22,483 nt of DNA from a virus. Of this stretch, positions 3,266-22,483 are shown one piece after another (within the stretch, counting starts at the first letter, position 1; every line of letters starts with the position of its first letter). Position numbers and translations under genes: made by a program. The notes below the pieces were generated by a model. That model did not search any database, was not told the DNA's origin, and saw only the letters and a list, made by a program, of their open reading frames with translations. The stretch is taken from positions 1 to 22,483 of the IMG/VR virus record IMGVR_UViG_3300024895_000073. The stretch is one strand, 5' to 3'.

Positions 3266-4950
3266 GCTACACACTCACCTTTATGGGATACCACTCCCGT
3301 TTCACTACGAATATAATACAATGATTTTATATATTTATCTTCAAATGCTATTTTATGTACCTCTGAAATATACTCTTCACTTTCATCTGCTGAAAAGAAT
3401 AAATTAATTGATTGAGCCTGATCAATAAATCTTTGTCTAGTTGATGCTGCTCTTAGGATTACCCTTTGATCTATTTCAAAGGCTGTCTTAAAAACTTCTT
3501 TCTCTTCATTACTCAACCAGTCTACGTTTCTAACAGAGCCTTTATCTTTTATAATATTATCTAAAGTTTTCTTAGAGTACTTTCCTCTCTCTCTCATTAT
3601 CTTTAATAGAGATGGATTAACTCTATCCATTTCTCCAGCAGCACTTCCTTGAATATACACATTCTTATAGATAGGTTCTATCCCTTGAGAGACCCCACCA
3701 GCATATAGAGCCGAAGATAGATTAGGTGCGATAGCTATACGAGTTGCATTAGCTACTCCATAACCTTGAGTGATAGGGGCTTCTCCAAATATAGTTGCTA
3801 ACCATTGAGAAGCATCCAGTGTCTCTGAGTGCATTTGTCTATAAACTTCTACATTCCACAGATGAGCTGTTAGAGACTCATAAGGTATTAGGTTATCTTG
3901 AAGATAGGTATGGTATCCAAGAGTACCCAGACCAAGAGCCATATGGTTCCTAGTAAAATTAATAGCTTTTTCAAGTCCGAGAATGTTTGAACCATTATTA
4001 ATAAAGTCCAAAGCCACACAATGGAGAAATACAAGAGAATCAAAGAAAACATTTTTTGATTTCCATTCATCCCATTTAGATAAGTTATTAGATGAGAGTA
4101 CACAGGTAAAAGTCTCCTCTAGGGTAGATGGAAGGGCTATCTCAGTACAAAGGTTAGAAGCTACTATTTTTCTATTTTGCTCTCTATACCAAGAAGGTGC
4201 TAATCTATTCACCTTATCAATGAAGAAGTAGTAGCCCTTACCAGTAATCATCTTTAACTTTAAAGTCTTCTGGTAACGTTCTATGGCGTCAGAATCACCA
4301 TTATTAAGTCTATCTATAAACTTATCTGATATTATCCATCCTACATTAGCATCATCAGGTGTCTTAGAGATAAAGTTTAGTATTTCTAAGAAATCTGGAT
4401 GATCTATTTCTAAGTATCCTGCCCAAGCACCTCTTCTAGAAGACCCTTGAGAGATGTCTTTACTAACTTGTATATAATCTTTAAATACTGGTAGAACACC
4501 AGAAGCACTACCACGAATCCCATTAATACCGGAGCCTCTTGGACGAATAGCTCCAAGGTATCCTGATGTACCAAATCCATTCTTCGAGAGTAGAGCCGCT
4601 TCCACTTGTCCATTATAGAAATCATATACTGAATCACCAATGTACCCTCCTGAGCAAGAGACTTGGCATCCTTTATCTCTACCCATATTAGCTAGTACTG
4701 GAGTAGATGGAATTAGCCATCCATTCCACATTAATAAAAAGAACTTATCAAACCATTCATGTTTTATATTGTCTGGCATATAACTAGCAGCTCTATTACT
4801 AATAGAAGCAAATCTACTTAATAAAGTCTCATCTTTATCTAAGTATTTACTCTTTAACATTTGCCAAGAGTTAGTAGTTATCCAATTAGGTAATTCTCCT
4901 TTAGCTTGAAGTTCTTTTCTTTCTTCACTTAATTCTTTATAGATACTCAA
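3253..4950 (-). CDS. nrdA: Class I ribonucleotide reductase, large (alpha) subunit
   Basis: It reduces ribonucleoside diphosphates to deoxyribonucleotides using the radical made by NrdB. The catalytic loop NLCTEIALPS (residues 266-275) contains the Asn-Cys-Glu triad N266, C268 and E270. The redox pair is probably C99 (in VSCSGGYIGDS) and C283 (in FTCVLSS). The radical-transfer Tyr pair is in SLYYIRSET, and the C-terminal CVACGS (C560 and C563) is the thioredoxin/glutaredoxin-reducible tail. At 565 residues it is much shorter than E. coli NrdA (761). It lacks a recognisable N-terminal ATP-cone, so the usual dATP activity switch is probably absent. It follows the 120-aa gene by 3 bases and lies downstream of nrdB. 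No glutaredoxin gene is in the window, so the host reductant is probably used. Confidence 0.95.
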   Translation of the reverse strand: MSIYKELSEERKELQAKGELPNWITTNSWQMLKSKYLDKDETLLSRFASISNRAASYMPDNIKHEWFDKFFLLMWNGWLIPSTPVLANMGRDKGCQVSCSGGYIGDSVYDFYNGQVEAALLSKNGFGTSGYLGAIRPRGSGINGIRGSASGVLPVFKDYIQVSKDISQGSSRRGAWAGYLEIDHPDFLEILNFISKTPDDANVGWIISDKFIDRLNNGDSDAIERYQKTLKLKMITGKGYYFFIDKVNRLAPSWYREQNRKIVASNLCTEIALPSTLEETFTCVLSSNNLSKWDEWKSKNVFFDSLVFLHCVALDFINNGSNILGLEKAINFTRNHMALGLGTLGYHTYLQDNLIPYESLTAHLWNVEVYRQMHSETLDASQWLATIFGEAPITQGYGVANATRIAIAPNLSSALYAGGVSQGIEPIYKNVYIQGSAAGEMDRVNPSLLKIMRERGKYSKKTLDNIIKDKGSVRNVDWLSNEEKEVFKTAFEIDQRVILRAASTRQRFIDQAQSINLFFSADESEEYISEVHKIAFEDKYIKSLYYIRSETGVVSHKGECVACGS

Positions 4951-18530: not shown

Positions 18531-20162
18531 CTAAAAAGATTCATTATATTCATCTTCATCTTCTTCTCCCCATCTACCTGTAGTATGGTTATACTTTAAT
18601 CTAAAAGTAGTTCCTGTAGCTAATCCTGTATTTCTATCTTTTAGAACTCTGAGAGTTGTTGTATTTCTTTCATCCAAATCTTCTGCCTGTTGATTCCTTT
18701 CAAGCCCAATAAGAAAGTTTGACCAAAAGACGATTGCCCCACTACCTTTAAACTGATCTGCTGTAACTCTTCCACCTTCTTCATGTGGAGTACCTGAAGC
18801 TTTACGCAAATGAGAGACATAAAAAAGAGTACAATTAAGCTCTTGGCAAAGACTAGACATTTCTTCCATAAGCCTATTGAGTGCTTTATACTCATTATCC
18901 TCTTGAGCTACTAACGCAGTTAAATGATCTAAATAAATTCTTTTAATACCTAAAGACTGAACCATGAATCTTATCTTAGGTTTAATAGATTCCCAGTCTT
19001 TTGCTCCAAAATGATTATAAAGGAAAACCTTTCCTTTTAAGTCATTAATACCATCTACCAATTCTTCTATAGTCCAATCTCCGCCTTTATCTGATGGAAT
19101 ATGGAATCTCTTATTAACTTTTTTACCAGCTAATACTTTAAGTGTTTTGGCTGCTGGCTCTTCTAAAAAGATAACTCCAGCTGTTTCATGGTGAAAATTG
19201 ATTGTATGATGAATGCACTCTTTAAAGAATTCTGTTTTTCCAGTTCCTGAGCCTGCGCCTATACCCCAAAGTTCTCCATCTCTATATCCGTAAGTAGCCT
19301 CAGTTAATGTAGGCCAAGGAAAAGATAAGCCCATTTCTGGGGGTTTAATAGCCTCATCAAACAAATCTTCTACACTTACAATACCGTCTGGCCTGCTTTC
19401 TTTAGCACAATAGATAGCTTCTAAGAATTCCTTGGATTTCCCTGATAGTAGTAAGGCATTTGGGTCTTTCTCAGAGAAAGTTATATTCTTTACTTTATTA
19501 GGGGGAAACATCTCAGATATAGAAGGAACCATTTTCTGCCCTGGTTCATCTTGATCAAATGCTAAGAAGATATTCTCAAAAGAGGCTAACCATTCATAAT
19601 TATCTTTTACTACTTTTACTGCTGAGCCTGCACCATTATTAACAGAGACAACCCTATAGGACTTTCCTTGTAATGCTAGCATTTCAACTGCCGCTAGGCA
19701 ATCACAAACACCCTCAGTAATAATAATCATCTTACCCTTACTACCAACAACCCTTTGTCCAAAGAATTCCTGATTAGCTCCTGCATCCACCCATTTAAAC
19801 TTTTTACCTTTAACTTCCCTAATACACACTGATAGAGACAGGTCTCCATTTAATACTGGATAAAAGTGTACTAAATCATTTCCATCAGAATCTACTACAC
19901 TCTTTACTTCATACTTCTCGCATACTTTTTGTGATATACCTCTACTTTTTAATGGATGAAACTCAGCACTGTAATAATCATAATCTATTTTAGATGGAGC
20001 ATTACTAACAACGTCTTTTGTTTCATCCATACTATGTACCTCATTACATTTAAAGCATTTTCCAAATGTTGATCCATTAGGTCTAAGATAAACTCCTAGA
20101 CCATTAGACGATCCACAAGATGGGCAACTTTCGTTTCTTAGATATTTATTTTTTTCTGTCAT
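18531..20162 (-). CDS. Bifunctional primase-helicase, T7 gp4-like, 543 aa
   Basis: It unwinds the fork and lays down primers. Residues 13-39 are a four-Cys zinc ribbon (CPSC and CFKC) that reads the priming site. The TOPRIM catalytic part has E150 (IITEGVCD) and D203/D205 (AFDQDEPG). The RecA-like helicase has Walker A GAGSGTGKT (302-310), Walker B IYLDHLT (409-415), and VSHLRKASGTPHEEGG plus GSGAIVFWSN for the later motifs. The C-terminal tail EEDEDEYNESF is acidic and ends in Phe, like the T7 gp4 tail that docks on the polymerase. ATG at 20162 has GGGAG four bases before it; an in-frame ATG at 20207 is less likely. It overlaps the preceding gene by 17 bases. Confidence 0.95.
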   Translation of the reverse strand: MTEKNKYLRNESCPSCGSSNGLGVYLRPNGSTFGKCFKCNEVHSMDETKDVVSNAPSKIDYDYYSAEFHPLKSRGISQKVCEKYEVKSVVDSDGNDLVHFYPVLNGDLSLSVCIREVKGKKFKWVDAGANQEFFGQRVVGSKGKMIIITEGVCDCLAAVEMLALQGKSYRVVSVNNGAGSAVKVVKDNYEWLASFENIFLAFDQDEPGQKMVPSISEMFPPNKVKNITFSEKDPNALLLSGKSKEFLEAIYCAKESRPDGIVSVEDLFDEAIKPPEMGLSFPWPTLTEATYGYRDGELWGIGAGSGTGKTEFFKECIHHTINFHHETAGVIFLEEPAAKTLKVLAGKKVNKRFHIPSDKGGDWTIEELVDGINDLKGKVFLYNHFGAKDWESIKPKIRFMVQSLGIKRIYLDHLTALVAQEDNEYKALNRLMEEMSSLCQELNCTLFYVSHLRKASGTPHEEGGRVTADQFKGSGAIVFWSNFLIGLERNQQAEDLDERNTTTLRVLKDRNTGLATGTTFRLKYNHTTGRWGEEDEDEYNESF

Positions 20163-21168
20163 TATTCTCCCATGTCTTAGTGATTCTTTTAAATGACTCT
20201 TTTTCATCTACTTTAACTGATTTGAAAATCCCTTTCTCTATAGCTAAATCAATATAATTGGAAACCCAATCTAAGCCCATGCAAGACTCAGACATATCTG
20301 ACATAAAAGTGCCTTTTTCTATAAGGGTTAATAAGTATGTTATATGAACTATTCCTGATTGAGGATGCGTTACATTCAAAGAGAATCTATAATTAGTTCT
20401 AATATACTTGTTAGAATAAGTACTTTGATGGTCCATAGAATATTGTCCAAAAGAGCTACTTTCTATACTAAAAACTGTGTTAGTTAACTCTTCATCATTC
20501 ATACCTGTTAATGGGTTCTTACCTAATATTCTATCTAAGTTAATTAGATAGAATCTAATATCGATATAAGGTAGAAATCTGAATATGAAAGAAGCATCAT
20601 TAGAGTTTGTATACTCTATTAAAATCATATTGAATAATTCTTCAATAGTTGTTATTGATTTATCAGATGGATAGCACAAACATCTTATTAGGAAAGTGTA
20701 GATAGATATTGCATGTGGAGACTTCATCCATAAGCTATCTCCGATAAATACTAACTTTTTCCTACCATTAATTCCAATTTTAACATTGGTTTCATGGACA
20801 GTTGTAGGAGTGATACCCATCTCTCTCTCTATATCATTTAAAATGCCTATTCTAGACTTTGGTAAATCTGAATGAAGGGCATTTATTGATATAGAGACAA
20901 GCGCTTCATCAATAGAAGCAATTCTATTTTTATCGTTAGTATTTAAAGGATTATGAAATCTTAGATTAGAAGCTAAACAAGTACTACCGACAAAATCTCT
21001 ACACTTAGACTCTAGTGCTAATTCATAGTAGACTTCTTTCTTGTCAAACTCTACTACTTTGCGAAGGATAGAGAATAAAGGGGCTTGAGTTGAAAGTGGT
21101 CTACCATAACTATTGCCATAATCTACTATTACTAAATTTACTTTTTCATTCATTTTGGTTATTCTCAA
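20146..21168 (-). CDS. Unknown protein A of a tandem paralogous pair, 340 aa
   Basis: I do not recognise a family. It aligns along its length with the next upstream gene: APLFSIL near residue 30, CRDFVGSTC (56-64), GDSLWMKSPHAISIYTF (143-159), RCLCY, DIRFYLINLDRILGKNPLTG in the middle, QSGIVHITYLL, and GLDWVSNYIDLA near 305. Conserved Cys, Trp and His suggest a structured, possibly metal-binding, domain; there is no membrane segment or signal peptide. The start may be TTG at 21168, which restores the MRI-K start shared with the paralogue, or ATG at 21153. It overlaps the primase-helicase gene, so it is probably made with the replication proteins. Confidence 0.8.
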   Translation of the reverse strand: MRITKMNEKVNLVIVDYGNSYGRPLSTQAPLFSILRKVVEFDKKEVYYELALESKCRDFVGSTCLASNLRFHNPLNTNDKNRIASIDEALVSISINALHSDLPKSRIGILNDIEREMGITPTTVHETNVKIGINGRKKLVFIGDSLWMKSPHAISIYTFLIRCLCYPSDKSITTIEELFNMILIEYTNSNDASFIFRFLPYIDIRFYLINLDRILGKNPLTGMNDEELTNTVFSIESSSFGQYSMDHQSTYSNKYIRTNYRFSLNVTHPQSGIVHITYLLTLIEKGTFMSDMSESCMGLDWVSNYIDLAIEKGIFKSVKVDEKESFKRITKTWENNDRKK

Positions 21169-21187: not shown

Positions 21188-22156
21188 CTAGTTTGCTTCA
21201 AATGACTGAAGACCATTAGTAGGGTTTCTTTTAAGGGTTAAAACTTTATTCTCTACAGCTAAATCAATATAGTTGGAGACCCAATCTAAACCAAGATTCG
21301 AAACTCCTATATAGTGCTGCCGTTCTTGATGTACTAAAAATAGACAGTCTGAGAAGGTGACTAGCCCTGATTGAGAATAGAGGCTACTCATTCTAAACTG
21401 ATATTTGTTATTAAAGTAAGAGCTTTTGTAAACTCCTTCTAAAATATCTGGATAGCTCTTTGTTTTATCTTCAATCCAAGAAGTATCTTTAAGAATTACC
21501 TTATCATTTAAACCAGTGAAAGGATTATCTCCTAAAACTCTATCTAAATTACCAAATAATAATCTTACATCTATATTTGATATAATCTTTTTGGCATAAT
21601 TAGAATCTACGTTATCAGAGCCTTTTGACGATAGGTATTTAAACGCACTCTCTATAGTACCTATATTCTTATGATACTCGAAATATGTTAAACATCTTAA
21701 GAAAAAAGTATAGAATGAGATTGCTAATGGAGCCTTTATCCAAAATTTATCACCTATGATAACTAAATGAGCCCTGCCGAATCTATCTAATTCGTTAGTA
21801 CTACAGACTTCAGTTAGTTTTATACCGAGATGTTGTTCAAACTCATGCAATATTCTGATGTTATTTAATAAATGATTCATTCCATCTGGGTTAATAGAGA
21901 TAGAGATGGACGTTTGGTTTGTATCAGTCAATAGATCTTCTTCTAGAATCATATTTGAAAATATATTCCTTACCTTTTTGTGAGCACATACACAAGCTGG
22001 CCCAACAAAATCTCTACATAAAGATGGGTAATTTAATTCTAGGAATGTATCATCCTCCTTCATTTTTAATAAAGCAAATGCAGGGGCATTACTAATATCT
22101 ATAGAAGTGTGGTCATTTACTCTACTTGTTAGAAGTTTTAATTTTACAATTCTCAT
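21188..22156 (-). CDS. Unknown protein B of a tandem paralogous pair, 322 aa
   Basis: Paralogue of the following gene. Shared landmarks are MRI-K at the start, APAFALL (24-30), CRDFVGPAC (47-55), GDKFWIKAPLAISFYTF, RCLTY, DVRLLFGNLDRVLGDNPFTG, QSGLVTFSDCLFL and GLDWVSNYIDLA near the C terminus. Between these blocks the two proteins differ strongly, so the duplication is old or the copies have separate jobs. The C-R-D-F-V-G...C motif and the G-D-x-x-W-x-K-x-P-x-A-I-S-x-Y-T-F motif are the best handles for a family search. The start follows the stop of the zinc-ribbon frame by 3 bases. Confidence 0.8.
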   Translation of the reverse strand: MRIVKLKLLTSRVNDHTSIDISNAPAFALLKMKEDDTFLELNYPSLCRDFVGPACVCAHKKVRNIFSNMILEEDLLTDTNQTSISISINPDGMNHLLNNIRILHEFEQHLGIKLTEVCSTNELDRFGRAHLVIIGDKFWIKAPLAISFYTFFLRCLTYFEYHKNIGTIESAFKYLSSKGSDNVDSNYAKKIISNIDVRLLFGNLDRVLGDNPFTGLNDKVILKDTSWIEDKTKSYPDILEGVYKSSYFNNKYQFRMSSLYSQSGLVTFSDCLFLVHQERQHYIGVSNLGLDWVSNYIDLAVENKVLTLKRNPTNGLQSFEAN

Positions 22157-22159
22157 AAT

Positions 22160-22482
22160 TTAATATATACTCTCTGGAAATGAGGCAACGCAATAGTTGC
22201 AATAAGGTTTATTATCAATTGCTATAAATGGTTTCTCTGAAATAACCTCTTCGTCACAATTAGAGCAGTAGACTTTTTTTTTTCAAATTGTACTACAGTA
22301 CCACCACCATAATCCTCATAATCTTCTTCATTATCATCTGGTAGCTCGTCTGCTAGTCCTAGTATCCTTCCTGATGCTACCTCATCAGAGTGCATTGATG
22401 TAAGGGTCACCTTTACCATCTTACCTAAATAAGAATCCATATCTTGTTTAGTCTGTCCACCAATTTGAATTTCAAGATCATT
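22160..22482 (-). CDS. Acidic/zinc-ribbon protein read through a -1 frameshift, 5' partial
   Basis: The frame is open to the right edge, so ATG at 22440 is probably internal. The first part (NDLEIQIGGQTKQDMDSYLG, ELPDDNEEDYEDYGGG) is acidic. Read without a shift, the frame crosses ten A residues and ends at 22222 after STALIVTK... and RLFQRNHL, which look random. Read with a -1 shift at A-AAA-AAG (22279-22273) it continues VYCSNCDEEVISEKPF and PYCNYCVASFPESIY to a stop at 22160-22162. That downstream frame has a clear CxxC...CxxC zinc ribbon and ends 3 bases before the next gene. Either the gene uses frameshifting, or one A is missing from the assembly, or the gene is broken. Confidence 0.7.
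22273..22283 (-). promoter_or_regulatory. Candidate A-AAA-AAG ribosomal slip site (A10 run)
   Basis: Ten A residues followed by G on the coding strand. The zero-frame codons are GAA AAA AAA AAG, so the last seven bases are A-AAA-AAG in the phase used by E. coli dnaX for -1 frameshifting. A -1 move enters the zinc-ribbon frame directly. An A10 run can also cause RNA polymerase slippage. No strong downstream stem-loop was seen by eye. Confidence 0.5.
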
Positions 22483-22483
22483 A

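Follow-up and report, generated by a model that had tools for sequence, protein, structure and literature searches.

A probable -1 frameshift onto a C-terminal zinc ribbon in a family of phage glutamine amidotransferases

At the end of a 22,483-nucleotide stretch of viral DNA (IMG/VR record IMGVR_UViG_3300024895_000073, positions 1 to 22,483, which we refer to as the window) a gene on the minus strand runs through ten adenines and stops shortly afterwards, and a second frame leading out of the same run encodes a zinc ribbon. Does the phage join the two by slipping back one base, giving two proteins from one start, or has the break another origin? The features concerned are as follows.

22222..22483, minus strand: zero-frame end of a class-II glutamine amidotransferase (GATase) open-reading frame, last 86 codons and stop, with the start outside the window
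22273..22283, minus strand: slip site A10-G, the A10 at 22283-22274 and the G at 22273
22279-22273, minus strand: heptamer A_AAA_AAG, in phase with the zero frame
22160..22273, minus strand: zinc ribbon CxxC-x18-CxxC in the -1 frame, 37 codons after the slip, stop at 22162-22160
21188..22156, minus strand: downstream neighbour gene of 322 aa with no Pfam family, ATG at 22156, 3 bases past the ribbon stop

The zero-frame codons across the run are GAA AAA AAA AAG TCT, which places A_AAA_AAG, a heptamer of the form X_XXY_YYZ, exactly in phase and within the overlap of the two frames, as a preliminary description of this DNA had read it. Also borne out were its statements that the zero frame closes after 16 more residues (stop at 22224-22222) and that the -1 frame holds an intact CxxC...CxxC motif ending three bases short of the next start. 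Past the A run the -1 frame encodes VYCSNCDEEVISEKPFIAIDNKPYCNYCVASFPESIY. A TGA lies immediately 5' of the run in this frame and no ATG, GTG or TTG occurs between it and the first cysteine, so the window ribbon lacks an independent start. The A10 exceeds every other run in the window and, at nine or more A or T, is also of the length associated with transcriptional slippage. In 42 other minus-strand open-reading frames checked in the window no in-phase A_AAA_AAG was found (0 in 6689 codons); two further in-phase copies lie in the GATase gene of this phage, 146 and 122 codons from its end, neither with a path to the ribbon. As a separate observation, the minus-strand open-reading frames at 21188-22156 and 20146-21168 are diverged adjacent paralogues, 34% identical over 292 columns (E 1e-50); neither has a Pfam family over the cut-off or a clear PHROG match (best E 0.0085).

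The complete gene was recovered from a 63-kb IMG/VR record (3300024974_000006, G001), which differs from the window by 3 mismatches in 22,483 bases without gaps and has an identical A10; it encodes 407 aa and lies at L002:1712-2935, equivalent to L003:3001-4224, where L003 is the window. Three loci in our sample with the same A10 (L002, L410 and L095) represent one single public record, and a third record (3300024970_000008) ends within the GATase gene, ahead of the A run. The gene was assigned through PF13522 (E 1.9e-13) and phrog_4736 (E 3.2e-71), its first residues M1 C2 G3 (MCG) are invariant across the ten-row alignment A1 of the GATase family, and Cys2 of the phrog_4736 GATases we take to be the N-terminal nucleophile. 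These matches identify the window gene as a phage class-II GATase, clipped at the window edge so that its 3' end is left. Because the near-identical 63-kb record holds the complete gene, the supposed acidic domain upstream of the slip is actually the end of this 407-residue GATase, and the acidic stretch falls in the disordered linker region of a relative's model. In the same record an amidoligase gene (PF12224) adjoins the GATase gene.

The predicted model is that of L018, a relative with the ribbon in frame (mean pLDDT 77.8), and runs from the GATase (~1-235) through a beta domain (~266-341) and a low-confidence stretch (358-395) to the ribbon region. Structurally, its GATase part matches the GlmS glutaminase domain (1xff_A, Z 23.8, rmsd 2.5, 209 aligned), and the slip site, between beta domain and ribbon, corresponds to the disordered linker of this model. 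Taken by itself, the beta domain of the window phage yielded weak matches, OB-type in many instances (best Z 6.3, rmsd 3.2, 71 aligned), and its counterpart in the L018 model matches 1luz_B (Z 8.9, rmsd 2.0, 72 aligned); these structural matches carry no functional claim. On the ribbon no Pfam family scored over its cut-off, the best being LIM (E 0.002, 18.8 bits vs a cut-off of 22.9). A DNA search of a phage collection with the window end gave no match, a pattern search returned the same 63-kb record and no other, and a scan of bacterial genomes gave no relative.

We therefore turn to the protein family. Searches of viral contigs contributed the best 80 of 381, 266, 241, 195 and 263 confirmed relatives, with heavy overlap between searches, and of 339 matching records of annotated phages 25 regions were taken (9 and a later 16). 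These gave 213 gene tails distinct in their last 100 bases, of which, with contig relatives represented by the best 80 per search, 165 carry the ribbon pattern in frame, 34 carry none and 14 carry it in another, overlapping frame; three of the 34 are truncated, and some are irregular or indel-broken genes (e.g. L019, L024 and L215). A profile search places the ribbon in frame in 170 of 229 genes at E<0.01, the profile itself having been built from 156 of these in-frame C-termini with the case genes left out. When it was run against 1640 stop-to-stop six-frame peptides from 15 case loci, shifted tails took the first 14 ranks, decoys the next two (15 and 16) and the shifted tail of L416 rank 17. 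The window -1 peptide ranked 13 of 1640 (E 0.0036) and the shifted ribbon of L060 reached E 2.5e-20; the L416 ribbon, at E 0.31, fell below the two decoys, so that its assignment rests on position and its four cysteines. Judged by the profile, the window -1 peptide is homologous to the in-frame ribbons beyond chance, and this match together with the four cysteines assigns it to the C-terminal ribbon of the family, with zinc binding predicted. Separately, L028:1546-2082 shows a second ribbon-like motif (E 0.0028) in an open stretch that comes after a GATase whose ribbon is in frame; the stretch uses another frame and overlaps the gene.

Among the 14 out-of-frame tails (best 80 per search) ten are in -1, namely the window (L003), L007, L060, L137, L178, L207, L307, L386, L389 and L390, and four are in +1 (L021, L055, L094 and L177). 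An in-phase A_AAA_AAG within the overlap was found in 8 of the 10 -1 rows vs 0 of the 4 +1 rows. The later 16 annotated regions held two -1 cases that lie outside the automatic list and were recognised on reading, L412, taken as a relative of L007, and L416, from a mixed sample of named phages. In the final -1 set of 12, ten have A_AAA_AAG, L307 has C_CCT_TTC and L178 has the tetramer A_AAG before a stop, against a chance expectation of 0.033 of 12 for A_AAA_AAG if codons are chosen independently in each gene. Under the same assumption, removal of two near copies leaves the motif in 8 of 10 (p 9e-20), and one row per clade, with the motif-bearing member picked where available, leaves it in 6 of 7 (p 3e-16). 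Of the +1 rows, L094 is presumably an indel in that record, and L021, an apparent +1 at an A8, was counted but given no weight in our conclusions because several single-base indels separate it from its sister record L024. These two records (IMGVR 3300028206_000018 and 3300028285_000026) are otherwise near-identical, the L024 GATase is cut short, and both are unsafe for frame analysis.

Three phages of the -1 set are named: Vibrio phage 1.293.O (L007, MG592660) and Vibrio phage 275E43-1 (L412, OX241572, a record that gives no host), each with a run of 6 A, and Pseudoalteromonas phage vB_PtuP_Slicky01 (L416, OQ508958), with a run of 8 A. In all three annotations the GATase ends at the zero-frame stop, the ribbon being unannotated in MG592660 and OQ508958 and a separate CDS (3724-3870) in L412, which suggests that the three annotations are incomplete. 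The window A10 is the longest run among the ten A_AAA_AAG cases; the other nine have 6-8 A, so that in none of these relatives was a run of at least nine A kept with the break. In L007 the motif lies two codons from the gene end, and the zero-frame stop directly follows the slip site in L007, L412, L416 and L389. In the 12 cases the zero-frame tail is between 0 and 16 residues long, with shared sequence only in the close pair L386/L390; the basic tail earlier ascribed to the short product looks incidental.

The two Vibrio phages, L007 and L412, are 72.8% identical in DNA and have kept both the motif and the -1 protein. For the 59 codons of their -1 ribbon we obtained dN 0.107 and dS 1.116, close in ratio to the GATase body (0.207 and 1.617), and by this measure the -1 ribbon of the pair is evolving as a protein. 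The ribbon frame of L386/L390 gave dN 0.069 and dS 0.109, with no clear selection, and the ribbon end there overlaps a further open-reading frame; for the window, the only other record across the slip site is the near-identical one (3 differences in 22,483).

Stimulatory elements were compared with control sites 25 codons ahead of the ribbon in in-frame genes. An SD-like match of at least 5 nt located 4-15 nt upstream occurs in 7 of 12 cases vs 20 of 166 controls (Fisher p 0.0004), and one of at least 4 nt in 10 of 12 vs 52 of 166, by a measure fixed after a first look at the data and in a set of 12 that holds two close pairs. Downstream folding also lies above that of the controls (median z -1.0 vs -0.22, p 0.011), chiefly owing to marked folds in L416, L137, L207 and L178. 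The window copy has an SD-like match of length 0 and a downstream fold of z -0.12. Of the dnaX-type site proposed earlier, the in-phase heptamer thus holds for the window, but the SD-like and stem-loop elements are absent from this copy, and because the stimulators are absent we do not class it as a dnaX-type signal.

A FastTree phylogeny was built from 191 GATase N-terminal parts, with near copies removed (L390 and L412 among them) and with L094, L024 and truncated or short rows left out. Ribbon states were available for 223 of 229 genes; L019, L036, L040, L047, L074 and L091, in which the last cysteine pair is irregular, were set as in frame wherever present. The -1 state, in 10 tree rows, requires 8 changes, gains or losses, of which at least 7 are forced by starred branches; of the 188 inner branches of this tree, 79 are weak. 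In it the window clusters with L017, L018 and L191, in which the ribbon is in frame, and with L008, which has none. In the comparison of homologues called for in the preliminary description, most relatives examined are thus single-frame, and A_AAA_AAG recurs in most of those with the ribbon in -1. One starred clade consists of L178, L416, L055 and L177, all of them out of frame. In L055 (3960-4115) and L177 (4017-4184) the ribbon is in +1 (or -2), the frames overlapping at CAA AAG AAG just before the zero-frame stop; no known shift site was recognised in either and no start precedes the first cysteine, and the overlap is a possible +1 or -2 recoding site.

Owing to the recurrence, the common slip motif, the selection in the Vibrio pair and the 8 tree changes, it is very probable that the break is programmed and recurs in the family, and we hold with high confidence, from sequence comparison, that a -1 shift onto the ribbon is a real and recurrent feature of these GATases. 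The earlier proposal that a -1 slip fuses the ribbon and yields two products is thus strongly supported for the gene family and less sure for the window copy itself.

We propose that normal reading would give the 407-residue form, consisting of the GATase domain, the small beta domain and the acidic linker, and that at A_AAA_AAG part of the ribosomes would slip back one base, the two Lys tRNAs pairing anew in -1. The slipped ribosomes would carry on through the C-terminal zinc ribbon, so that this form reaches about 428 residues. Whereas most relatives examined have the ribbon in frame, on several separate branches it stands behind a -1 slip site, and only a fraction of the enzyme molecules would then be made with it. 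That a ribosomal -1 slip gives the window phage its GATase in two forms, with and without the ribbon, we rate at a probability of about 0.72. The shift is likely to work in the phage of the window, a single species with an A10 and no stimulators; that slippage takes place there, by ribosomes and not RNA polymerase, as well as the ratio of the forms and the function of each, we infer from the family pattern. The shift would presumably set the ratio of ribbon-bearing to ribbonless enzyme.

The leading alternative for the window phage, which we consider unlikely, is that RNA polymerase slips on the A10 and that mRNAs with an extra A are read straight into the ribbon. Of all runs in the set and in the window the A10 is the longest, the window site is without ribosomal stimulators, and in bacteria slippage is efficient on runs of 9 A or T (PMC5009743); as nine A's suffice by that source, transcriptional slippage may contribute or dominate in the window. 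The other nine A_AAA_AAG cases, however, fall under the 9 given in PMC5009743, the -1 cases L307 and L178 are without any run of six A, and the ribosomal motif is in phase in 10 of 10.

Considerably less probable is the loss of one A, through the assembly or within the phage population, from a gene that is in truth single-frame like those of the nearest relatives. The in-frame ribbons of L017, L018 and L191 would fit this, homopolymers are error-prone, A-run indels could create apparent -1 cases, and the second record is so nearly identical that it may stem from a related sample; yet two separate records agree on the A10, gap-free over 22,483 bases, and the same arrangement exists in named phages. 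Codon phase was tried as a decisive test against indel error and failed, since about half of the A-runs of at least six in control genes (79 of 160) happen to share the slip phase. Phase alone, with p 0.0009 for 10/10 and p 0.014 for 6 lineages, argues moderately against homopolymer error, and assembly error as a general explanation is weakened by the runs of 6, 6 and 8 A in the named phages and by the recurrence.

It is very improbable that a recent one-base deletion cut off the ribbon and left it to decay: ribbonless relatives do exist, including the neighbour L008 and a six-row clade (L022, L026, L029, L034, L041 and L056), but after the slip the -1 frame continues open through 37 codons, keeps its four cysteines, ends at the gene boundary and shows no decay. 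Hardly credible is the ribbon as a separate small protein made through re-initiation, for which the CDS of its own in the L412 annotation and some start ahead of the first cysteine in 7 of 12 cases might speak, and against which the other 5 (the window, L416, L060, L207 and L178) have no ATG, GTG or TTG in that position.

Set beside known systems, the proposed ribosomal slippage in this GATase family is close to that of dnaX of E. coli (tau/gamma), which likewise has A_AAA_AAG in phase and two products from one start, and several GATase relatives share with it SD-like and hairpin elements. In dnaX the shift leads to the short product (PMC3711429), whereas here it would lead to the long one with an added ribbon. 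With stimulators present, A_AAA_AAG ranked in the top three for efficiency of the heptamers tested in E. coli (PMC4066793). The lambda G/GT tail chaperone and T7-like capsid proteins also gain a C-terminal extension by a -1 slip (PMC5009743 and PMC7881722), but these are assembly and capsid proteins, whilst here an enzyme is concerned and the extension is in frame in most relatives examined. In the endosymbionts Buchnera and Blochmannia genes are rescued through poly(A) slippage, and there as in the window a long A run interrupts a frame for which repair at the RNA level is possible (PMC5009743); unlike these, the other A_AAA_AAG members here have 6-8 A and ribosomal phase. Annotated phage frameshifts belong mainly to tail chaperones, which account for 2397 of 2476 in one collection (PMC10885494), with some enzymes named too. 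No report of a frameshift in a phage GATase family was found in the full-text literature, subscription journals and preprints being mostly outside it, and the word amidotransferase occurs 0 times in the main text of PMC3711429, PMC10885494 and PMC5009743 (first 300,000 of 475,107 characters). The slippage mechanism is thus well known; its use in this GATase family was not found in print.

The GATase family appears to dose one domain through the same slip signal on several branches, and the natural series of ribbons in frame, shifted and absent could be used for probing what the ribbon does. More tentatively, and with the odds somewhat against it, the family may repeatedly switch between an in-frame, a frameshift-dosed and no ribbon, with the ratio tuned, and the clade of L178, L416, L055 and L177 may have kept an out-of-frame ribbon whilst changing the direction of the shift. 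If the ratio is tuned, one setting would be complexes that need ribbons on some subunits only, like tau/gamma in the clamp loader.

The phrog_4736 GATases of phages (tf, LUZ24-like and Zobellviridae) belong to the same N-terminal family, and the members examined have the ribbon mostly in frame, in contrast to the -1 frame of the window. Amidoligase and COOH-NH2 ligase genes lie nearby in most annotated regions seen, and genes near the GATase include amidoligase, COOH-NH2 ligase and gamma-glutamyl cyclotransferase in varying sets. For amidoligase/GATase neighbourhoods cell-wall modification or metabolite synthesis has been suggested (PMC10580990); such functions are suggestions and not a demonstrated role. 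Two of the annotated regions are 86.7% identical in DNA over 4.2 kb, L422 (OP650935, 'Poriferisphaera phage ZRK32', reported from a planctomycete) and L421 (Pseudomonas phage SCYZ1), and because of this identity to a Pseudomonas phage, in a record marked unverified, the host assignment of OP650935 deserves a check. Endonuclease genes (homing, HNH or unspecified) are annotated immediately next to the GATase at L412:2057-2479, L419:1988-2404, L426:3907-4374 and L427:1984-2463.
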